From Deltaproteobacteria bacterium (GTDB lineage: Bacteria > Myxococcota_A > Polyangia > Polyangiales > JADJMO01): 64,000 nucleotides of DNA. The notes under the pieces are model-generated. The model had not been told where the DNA came from and did no database searches. It was given only the letters and a program-made list of their open reading frames with translations. This document shows, in pieces, positions 2,494 to 60,526 of the stretch (position 1 is the first letter of the stretch; every line of letters starts with the position of its first letter). The stretch spans positions 1 to 64,000 of the forward strand of contig JACPFM010000187.1 of assembly GCA_016182965.1 (NCBI GenBank). Reading direction: 5' to 3'. A program made the translations under genes and the position numbers.

Positions 2494-2577
2494 GGTCGAA
2501 GGTCGAAGGTCGAAGGTCGAAGGTCGAATCGAGACGAGACGTGACGCCCTTTGACCTTCGACGTTCGACCTTCGACC
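2494..2577. repeat. Heptanucleotide array with inverted partner (GGTCGAA)5 ... (TTCGACC)n
   Basis: Five exact GGTCGAA copies fill 2494-2528. After 24 bases, 2553-2577 carries the reverse complement units (TTCGACC-type, one imperfect). The transcript could fold into a hairpin of about 25 bp. It lies between two minus-strand genes, the radical SAM gene (ending 2620) and the acyl-CoA dehydrogenase (starting 2429), so it could terminate or attenuate readthrough. The same heptamer recurs at 45381-45462. Confidence 0.85.
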
Positions 2578-8765: not shown

Positions 8766-10259
8766 GCAGCCCCTGTCGGAGGGCGCCCTCGACGATCGGC
8801 AGCAGCGTCGCCACGATCTGCTCCCGCGGGACGCGGTGTCGCGCTGCGACGAGGGCCATCGCGGTGCGCACGTCCGGCTCGCGGTCGAGGGCAAGGACGA
8901 GATCGCGCGTCGGGGCGTTCACCTCGGTCGTCGCGACGAGCGGATCGGTCGGGTGCTCGAGGACGTAGCGCGGCGGCGCGCCGGGCGCGCCCCACACCGC
9001 GCCGACGGTGACGCCGGGAGAAATCCGGAGCCTCGCGCGCAGCAGCGCGGCGGTGCCCGCGGCGAGCAGGCGATCGGCGGCGAGCCGCGCCTCGATGCGC
9101 GCACCCGACAGCTGCGTGAGCCTCGTCGACGAGAGCGGTACGCGCGCGGTCGTCGCCCCGGCGAGAGCCTCCTCGGAGGTGACGACCAGCAGCGCCTGGG
9201 TGATCGCGCCCACGCCGAGGCGCGCGAAGTGCTCGCGGCGGCGGCGGGCGCTCGTCGCGTACGCCTCGTCGAACGTCGCGTGCTCGGCCGCGGCGTAGGC
9301 TGCGGCGATCTCGTCGGGTGAGGCGTCGCGTTCCTCGAACGACCAGAGCGAGAGCTCCGACGTGCCGATCGCGTCGCGGGCGAGCGCCGTCACCGGGCGG
9401 TCGTCGGTCCGCGGCCACTCGCCGAACACGAACGCGCGGCCGGCGAGGTGCGCGGGCAGCTCGCGGAGCATGCGGACCATCAGCTCGTCGCCGCGGGCGC
9501 CGCCGTGCATGTACGTCGCGTCGGGCGCCCCCTCGGGGCGCGCGACGAAGGGCGGCTGCGAGACGATCAAGTCGAAGCGCTCGCCGGCGACCGGCGCGAA
9601 CAGATCGCCGACCCTGAGCTCGACGTTGTCGACGGCGTTGACCGCCGCGTTGACGCGCGCGAGCAGCGCCGCGCGCGGGTTGATGTCGACGCCGACGGCG
9701 ACCCGCGCGTTGCGCGCGAGGCAGAGGGCCGCCGCGCCCGCGCCGCACCCGACGTCGAGCACGCGATCGACGGGGGAGCTCGGCACCGCCGCGCGACAGA
9801 GCCCGATGGTCGTGGTGCCGACCGCCATCACGGCGTCGCCGCCGAGGCGCAGCGGATCGCCGAGCAGGAGCAGGTGATCGAGCGGCGTCAGCGTGAGCTG
9901 CGCGGCCACGCCCTTCGGGTGCCGGGCGAGCACCTCGGCGTCGAGCAGCGCGCCCGTGATCGACGCGCCGAGCGCCCGGACCACGTCGTCGGCGGGCACC
10001 GCGTCTTCGAAGCAGAGCAGGCGCAGCAGGGTAGCGATGTCGTCGCGGCTGGCGCGCAGGCGCCTCCGGCGCACCGGCGCGCGCAGCTCGATGGGGACGC
10101 CGCGGCCGATGCGCAGGGCGCCTTGGCGCGCGCCAGCGAGGTCGAGGTCGCGCAGGCGCGCGCCGAGGGCGCGCCACACCGCGGGGGGGACGCGCGCGAG
10201 CTTCGACGCGTCGACGAGGCCGCTCGTGACACCACTCATGACACCACTCATGACACCAC

Positions 10260-24620: not shown

Positions 24621-24651
24621 GTCTAGAGTCTAGAGTCTAGAGTCTAGAGTC
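24621..24651. repeat. Heptanucleotide array (GTCTAGA)4
   Basis: Four exact GTCTAGA units plus GTC. Each contains the palindrome TCTAGA, so the array can pair with itself. Just upstream, 24598-24618 holds decayed GTCGTCAGTCG-like units resembling the array at 60435. It sits downstream of the ABC operon. Confidence 0.85.
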
Positions 24652-29309: not shown

Positions 29310-30452
<1,143 letters not shown>

Positions 30453-31899: not shown

Positions 31900-31903
31900 T
31901 GCG

Positions 31904-32135
<232 letters not shown>

Positions 32136-32404
32136 GTGGGCTGCTGCGGCGCGTTCGACTCGTTCACCGGAGAAGCCAGACCAGCGTCGGCGCGTGGTCG
32201 AGCCGTCGGAGGCCCGGACGGAGGACGAGGGCGGGTCGCGAGGCGTGGACAGCGCCCTGTCAGGAGTGTCCTTGGGCAGCTGCGATCGAGTGTCTGGAAT
32301 GTCCTCGACCAGATGTGTCAGGGATCACCTCAATCCGTACCGTCTTTACCGTTGAGGAGGCCTTGACTTCGCGCCGCTCCGACCACATATATGCCATATT
32401 CAAG

Positions 32405-35602: not shown

Positions 35603-35737
35603 ACTCATCGAGGATCGGTCGCGATTCTCGGCCAACCGGCGTCGCTGGCCCCGCGTGCCCGATGATTCCTGCCACCGCGTCGATTCCCTGATCCAGGTCG
35701 GGCGATCTCGATCGTTGCGAGGCTGCGCCCCCGCGGC

Positions 35738-45380: not shown

Positions 45381-45462
45381 GGGGTCGAGGGTCGAAAAAG
45401 GTCGAAGGTCGAAGGAGGCGTCTCTCTCGACCCTCGACCTTCGACCTTCGACCTTCGACCTG
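45381..45462. repeat. GGTCGAA-type heptamer array with inverted partner
   Basis: Left arm 45381-45415 has GGTCGAG/GGTCGAA units, interrupted once by an A-run; right arm 45425-45462 has the complementary CTCGACC/TTCGACC units, including three exact ones. The hairpin would exceed 25 bp with a short loop. It lies between two minus-strand genes. The unit is identical to the array at 2494, 43 kb away. Confidence 0.85.
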
Positions 45463-49351: not shown

Positions 49352-49452
49352 TCACGGGCGCGCCGTGCCACGCGGCGAGCGGCCGCATCCTCGGAGCGAC
49401 ACGGCGGACGTCCGAGAATCGCGGCCGGTGAGACCCGTGACCGAGGAGCGTG

Positions 49453-52101: not shown

Positions 52102-52129
52102 GCGTGCGGCGTGCGGCGTGCGGCGTGCG
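52102..52129. repeat. Heptanucleotide array (GCGTGCG)4
   Basis: Four exact GCGTGCG units end one base before the stop of the metalloprotease gene, in the spacer to the next minus-strand gene. No clear inverted partner array. Confidence 0.85.
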
Positions 52130-57020: not shown

Positions 57021-57055
57021 GACGACTGACGACTGACGACTGACGACTGAGGACT
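57021..57055. repeat. Heptanucleotide array (GACGACT)4 plus GAGGACT in the infC leader
   Basis: Four exact units and one with a single change, ending 22 bases before the infC start. The same unit, with its complement, occurs at 60435-60526. Being so close to a ribosome binding site (AGAGG at 57060), it could affect infC translation. Confidence 0.85.
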
Positions 57056-60377: not shown

Positions 60378-60434
60378 GTCAGCGGTCGCAATCGCGGGAG
60401 GTCGGATTGTGGCTGGCCGCGCAGACCGGGTCAT

Positions 60435-60526
60435 CAGTCGTCAGTCGTCAGTCGTCAGGCGAGAGCGAGAATTTCTCCAGTCGGCTGGGCTGATGACTGA
60501 TGACTGATGACTGACGACTGACGACC
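60435..60526. repeat. Inverted pair of heptamer arrays, (CAGTCGT)3 and (GATGACT)3(GACGACT)2
   Basis: Left array 60435-60458; right array 60492-60526. The right array is the reverse complement of the left if G-U pairs are allowed (GATGACT versus GACGACT), giving a stem of about 24 bp with a 33-base loop. It separates convergent genes ending at 60377 and 60569 and can act as a bidirectional terminator. Confidence 0.88.

Follow-up and report, generated by a model that had tools for sequence, protein, structure and literature searches.

REP, BIME and REPIN sequences are extragenic palindromes that form inverted doublets and hairpins, occur in hundreds of copies and in several families per genome, and are species-specific (PMC3116915, PMC3733652), and in all these respects they resemble the elements described here. 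REPs lie next to 3' ends, in convergent and unidirectional but not in divergent gaps, and have been viewed as RNA elements (PMC3733652); the elements of the genome under study likewise adjoin 3' ends and avoid divergent gaps. A REPIN is an inverted-doublet hairpin (PMC3116915). However, a REP consists of a GTAG or CGTC tag and a single short stem-loop, whereas each arm here is built of about four tandem GTCnnnn heptamers (30 bp), and the REPIN spacer is conserved at least in length, whereas here the spacers measure 11-300 bp and those of different copies are for the most part unrelated. A RAYT gene flanked by the repeats is a further mark of REPs and REPINs. No such link was seen here, and no arrays were found in the flanks examined (up to 1.5 kb a side) of the 6 Y1/RAYT-type (PF01797) genes of this genome, which is 91% complete. 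In having no known transposase, the elements are like the CGTC-tagged REPs (PMC3116915, PMC3733652). As regards the traits of MITEs, neither a target-site duplication nor an autonomous partner was seen in the approximately 13% of the genome covered. An autonomous composite element (arm, gene, arm) was also considered and rejected, since none of the elements in 1.2 Mb encloses a gene.

Heptamer repeats are the other relevant comparison. Heptanucleotides are over-represented in many bacteria, and polymerase contacts have been offered as the reason why the step is 7 nt (Mrazek et al. 2007, cited in both PMC4679880 and PMC4692102). The heptameric LSSR/STRR repeats GGGAATC of Xanthomonas and GGGGAYT of Nostoc have a period of 7, are intergenic, consist mostly of four units and form occasional inverted pairs, and in Xanthomonas their position is mostly conserved between two species (PMC4692102). 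The elements described here are, like them, intergenic tandem 7-bp repeats above chance, and the likeness to cyanobacterial heptamer repeats, to which the sequence-only reading had drawn attention, is upheld. However, the Xanthomonas and Nostoc repeats are G-rich and have been read as G-quadruplexes, whereas the preference for four units is found here in words without G-runs, and the slippage-type length spectrum of such repeats (many short, few long) is absent here. The TAACTGA repeats of Beggiatoaceae, cyanobacteria and Bacteroidetes are intergenic heptamers with a patchy distribution over phyla (PMC4679880); reverse-complemented and rotated, their unit reads GTTATCA, one base off a unit variant of the genome under study, GTCATCA. 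In the Beggiatoaceae genome they are mostly single arrays of one orientation upstream of starts, and paired arms are not the described rule (PMC4679880), whereas the arrays here are paired and stop-proximal, with units one to two bases off. For Geobacter metallireducens, the passages of PMC2700814 that treat such repeats describe 7-/8-mer arrays (classes 1-3 and Gmet_H4), many of which form opposite-strand pairs at variable spacing; these arrays are multicopy, are reported as unique to the species and have been read as IHF/HU sites or regulatory RNA. Their units differ (GTTGCTYN, TCTCCGTS, MTYCTGA and GGACCGG, in 16-49 copies), and the same passages contain no report of 3'-end placement, polarity or insertion.

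The window, i.e. the whole 64-kb stretch of DNA that was analysed, is one contig (C46) of an assembly of 226 contigs and 9.59 Mb. All six arrays of 7-bp units that had been noticed there were recovered at their positions by Tandem Repeats Finder and an exact-run scan (Table 1). Three of them had been described as hairpin-forming, which is confirmed by RNA folds of the three pairs, in order of position, of -70 (z -8.0), -59 (z -5.6) and -65 kcal/mol (z -8.1). The X arm lies 37 bp past the stop of an FtsX/MacB-type permease gene (gene end 24583), the genes thrS and infC on either side of the single T arm were confirmed by Pfam, and the flanking box begins about 2 bp past a stop codon. Weaker matches to this box, without arrays, are found at 49395-49431 (-) and 35614-35649 (+). 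The six arrays do not form one family, as had been supposed: the GCGTGCG array falls out, having neither GTC nor a partner and a unit that is unique in the 859-kb sample, and it is probably unrelated to the GTCnnnn elements.

Table 1. Heptamer arrays of the window and the flanking box of one element.
Feature	Units	Position	Strand	Remark
Left arm, family A	(GGTCGAA)5	2494..2528	+	perfect array
Right arm, family A	TTCGACC units, some substitutions	2548..2577	-	complementary to 2494 arm
Unpaired arm, family X	GTC(TAGAGTC)4, 31 bp	24621..24651	+	
Left arm, family A		45381..45415	+	partly degenerate
Right arm, family A		45427..45461	-	complementary
Non-member	(GCGTGCG)4	52102..52129	.	no GTC, no partner
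Single arm, family T	GACGACT units	57021..57055	-	thrS-infC gap, 22 bp before infC start
Flanking box, ~50 bp		60379..60428	+	nhmmer profile of outer flanks, E 8e-7; site in seed
Left arm, family T	GTCATCA + GTCGTCA units	60430..60458	+	
Right arm, family T/D	TGATGAC + TGACGAC units	60490..60525	-	

Exact runs of at least about 3.4 copies numbered seven in the window for period 7 and none for periods 4, 5, 8-11, 13 and 14; the four runs of period 6 all fall within one array at 31.9-32.1 kb. This hexamer array (31901-32136) is long and degenerate (GGCGAA/GGCGCG). The genome sample was enlarged from 0.86 Mb (859 kb) to 1.22 Mb, about 13% of the genome, with genes called by our own dicodon model. 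In the 859 kb, exact runs of 14 or more matched positions numbered 80 for period 7, compared with 1, 2, 0, 3, 2 and 2 for periods 4, 5, 8, 10, 11 and 13, and with 22, 7, 18 and 17 for periods 6, 9, 12 and 15. Period 7 is thus commoner than periods 5, 6 and 8, one of the two comparisons on which the sequence-only reading had made its proposal depend. The fixed 7-bp unit that it described is real, but the sequence of the unit is not freely variable, since three related words hold nearly all of the 80 runs: T (GTCGTCA, 37 runs, with 5 more of the variant GTCATCA), A (GTCGAAG, 17 runs) and X (GTCTAGA, 17 runs), all of which can be written as GTCnnnn. Genome-wide, three copies of GGTCGAA with at most one mismatch gave 392 matches and the reversed control 0, and the degenerate GTCnnnn pattern gave 1,563 matches compared with 23 in the sister species G001 (a congener, represented by a single species-level genome); as the assembly is a draft, collapsed repeats may escape these counts. 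About 750 elements are projected for the whole genome.

The hairpin arms had been rightly recognised, but heptamer arrays independent of one another are not what was found. The arrays belong together as arms of a composite element of fixed polarity, which consists of a GTCnnnn arm (about 30 bp), a variable spacer and a complementary arm, in this order. Within 400 bp, a GTC-reading array precedes a GAC-reading one in 45 cases and follows it in 1, and a unit-free test of the GTC/GAC register gave 53 +- against 0 -+; beyond 1 kb the order of neighbours turns -+, as expected for successive separate elements. A +- pair is present in 66 of 95 elements, neighbouring +- arms have an identical unit in 55 of 67 cases, and the lengths of the arms within an element are uncorrelated (rho -0.13). 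Array length has its mode at 29-31 bp, with a detection floor of 16 bp. X arrays typically read GTC(TAGAGTC)4, with a GTCTAGA start in 18 of 20 perfect arrays, most T arrays start with AGTCGTC or GTC(G/A)TCA and typically have TCGTCAG or TCAGTCG at the inner end, and A arrays have the form (GGTCGAA)n. The spacers have no common core, apart from an inner stem CCAGGGGC..GCCCCTGG in a small group of family A, and nested combinations (X+ A- X-; T+ A+ A- T-) are present. About 20 elements share a ~50-bp outer box, mostly starting 0-6 bp past a stop; its sequence, about CGGTCGCGATTCTCGGACG..CCGTGTCGCTGCTCGCGCAGGCCGG, recurs after stops and usually adjoins an array. The RNA folds of complete elements range from -49 to -79 kcal/mol (z -5 to -9). 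No family matching the elements was found in Rfam, and no match in the phage (T arm) and plasmid (X arm) collections, where a low-complexity filter may hide such queries. A 224-bp repeat at C96 ~9327-9550 and C17 ~30184-30407, 97% identical and inverted, lies beside heptamer elements and is a separate repeat family.

Ordinary long simple-sequence repeats, produced by slippage with a preferred 7-nt step and intergenic where selection allows, without any dispersal, are an unlikely explanation of these arrays. The known over-representation of heptanucleotides and its polymerase-contact explanation (Mrazek et al. 2007, in the form cited by PMC4679880 and PMC4692102) are in its favor, and so are decayed heptamer-like seeds in the G001 gaps at two element sites. 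However, the dominance of three words genome-wide, a length mode in place of a monotonic fall-off, the phasing of the array ends, the polarity of 53:0 and the placement at 3' ends all argue against slippage of this kind.

The placement of the elements follows the ends of genes. Outside genes lie 186 of 193 arrays, whereas random placement would put 77% inside; arrays equally common in genes, which would have refuted the sequence-only reading, are thus not what is found. The intergenic location had been seen before, but this account was incomplete, missing the lineage-specific insertion at gene 3' ends. Most of the in-gene exceptions come from three elements in one long high-scoring ORF (C36:43000-46791). 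It is probably a shadow ORF, because on the opposite strand the first gene caller had predicted genes with the elements in the gaps between them; that heptamer arrays sit inside a real gene is the less probable reading. Elements were found in 29 of 106 convergent gaps (27%), 53 of 382 codirectional gaps (14%) and 4 of 170 divergent gaps (2.4%), which amounts to a depletion of divergent gaps against the rest (p=1e-7). Distances on the stop side are bimodal, with 39 of 111 at -3 to +10 bp and another 39 at 36-70 bp, and at about 20 sites the second mode arises because the ~50-bp box sits between stop and array. Where codirectional gaps leave 150 bp or more of free flank, the elements tend towards the stop side (KS p=0.017, n=19). 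They are also present between the cistrons of the S10 and alpha ribosomal-protein operons, the genes of which were confirmed by Pfam. Their density is uneven: contigs C36 (20 elements in 100 kb), C115 and C117 contrast with the sparse C4 and C149, which together have 2 elements in 300 kb where 23 were expected (p ~2e-8).

The comparison with related genomes indicates how restricted the elements are. The A unit has 0 matches in 56 relatives including one congener, no period-7 excess was found in samples of four relatives, and their intergenic DNA has no residual lag-7 periodicity, in a profile whose coding/intergenic split is blurred by the first gene caller, trained on antisense shadow ORFs. 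G001 bears a few arrays of GTCGACG/GTCGACA, with a self-complementary core (C12:59069, C15:33317, C63:10638). Relative to G001, the rpsK-rpsD gap has 88 bp extra, the rplC-rplD gap measures 126 bp against 11 bp, and a gap at C96:51.7 kb measures 228 bp against 11 bp. Between rplB and rpsS the element stands directly behind the stop, and the remainder of the gap still aligns with G001. The thrS-infC gap of G001 has no T array and instead a decayed A-type run. By these alignments, the elements are net insertions relative to G001, even in the S10 and alpha operons; loss in G001 is the less probable origin of the difference. Decayed heptamer-like stretches are kept in two G001 gaps at element sites, so that some sites may predate the split.

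The sister species also bears on the idea that the elements are functional 3' RNA hairpins, mRNA stabilisers or cistron insulators, selected at each gene end. Such a role would suit the strength of the folds and the siting in transcribed 3' and intercistronic gaps, including those of ribosomal operons, and REPs have been published as RNA elements (PMC3733652). However, we consider it rather improbable, as the same operons of the sister species do without elements and as the density is very uneven (2 against 23 expected in 300 kb of C4 and C149). Moreover, among the elements of codirectional gaps, 5 have G.U-compatible and 5 have A.C-incompatible unit mixtures, so that selection on RNA pairing is not indicated.

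If the arrays were operators of a protein that contacts DNA at 7-bp intervals, a global regulator or a nucleoid one, this would account for the constant GTC core at a 7-bp step, the variation of the other four bases between units and the number of about four units per arm. Ribbon-helix-helix proteins, e.g. omega of pSM19035, bind 7-bp heptads. Paired opposite-strand sites at variable spacing are also what the Geobacter metallireducens passages describe, with their IHF/HU proposal (PMC2700814). Nevertheless, promoter-bearing divergent gaps are avoided (4/170), which is the opposite of what a transcriptional operator would do, and the placement is set by stop codons; both make this explanation very doubtful. 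Intrinsic transcription terminators, which would likewise be strong hairpins enriched in convergent gaps, can hardly be what these elements are, with TTTT within 12 nt at 1 of 161 outer arm ends and with elements sitting inside essential ribosomal operons.

The reading that we prefer, and hold with middling confidence, is that these are dispersed REP/BIME-like extragenic palindromes, the arms of which are kept as about four GTCnnnn heptamers by copying in 7-bp steps, and which expanded in this lineage. A trans-acting enzyme would have dispersed the elements over the genome in a recent burst, and the arms would stay uniform through unequal copying or slippage by 7 bp at a time, while the spacers diverge. 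The elements may have persisted at 3' ends because they do least harm there, possibly as mRNA-stabilising or insulating hairpins; each could be transcribed as a long hairpin directly behind the stop codon. In favor of this reading are the fixed polarity, the matching of units within pairs, the modal length and phased ends of the arrays, the REP-like distribution over gaps, the insertions relative to G001 and the similar elements of a Chloroflexota MAG; the want of a RAYT link, the unrelated spacers, a possible loss in G001, the uncorrelated arm lengths and the absence of a visible target-site duplication weigh against it. The mechanism copying or expanding 7-bp units that had been proposed from the sequence is plausible for the upkeep of the arms, but alone it does not explain the polarity, the matching of units between arms and the placement at 3' ends.

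Similar elements were met in other phyla. A T-unit scan of GTDB species genomes gave at least 105 stretches in many phyla; the scan is biased to T, and the examples come from a limited number of loci, largely in MAGs, where mis-binning is possible. A Thermomicrobiales MAG (Chloroflexota; L232/G184) had 386 matches in the genome and 0 in the control. At L232, the stop of an ABC-2 permease gene runs into (AGTCGTC)4AG, which is followed by a spacer of ~45 bp, a complementary 30-bp arm and the start of an ATPase gene. At least four GTCnnnn words occur in this MAG as unit-matched pairs, several with 30-31-bp arms, and the elements are near-identical to those of the genome under study in units, arm length and polarity. 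In loci chosen regardless of polarity, the ratio of +- to -+ was 10:3 (T-scan loci) and 5:1 (Chloroflexota MAG sample); -+ pairs with other words occur, so the polarity rule is not universal. Cyanobacterial loci (L179, L185) have mixed AGTTATC/AGTCATC runs plus complementary partners. An Acidobacteria MAG (G187, loci L203/L318) bears an abundant paired family AGTCAGA/AGTCAGG ... TTCTGACT, with polarity as in the genome under study. As a tentative suggestion, there may be a cross-phylum class of palindromes with GTC every 7 bp about four times, inverted arms and the other four bases family-specific. An undescribed machinery acting in trans, which would read or copy DNA in 7-bp steps, would spread these palindromes and keep them uniform, and the class would include the STRRs of cyanobacteria, the TAACTGA repeats and the paired arrays of Geobacter.

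Summarizing, the over-representation of heptamers and the biology of REPs are each known, and their combination appears to be new. The reason for the predominance of heptamers among bacterial simple repeats has been an open remark since 2007, and REP-type palindromes that lack a transposase pose an acknowledged puzzle. The two meet in this genome, in that its heptamers are the arms of an inserted palindrome with a fixed polarity, a fixed length and an address at 3' ends. Since some 750 projected copies stand here against almost none in the sister species, gain, loss and the genes responsible are directly testable. Moreover, essential ribosomal operons tolerate, according to the predicted folds, hairpins of ~65 kcal/mol between their cistrons.
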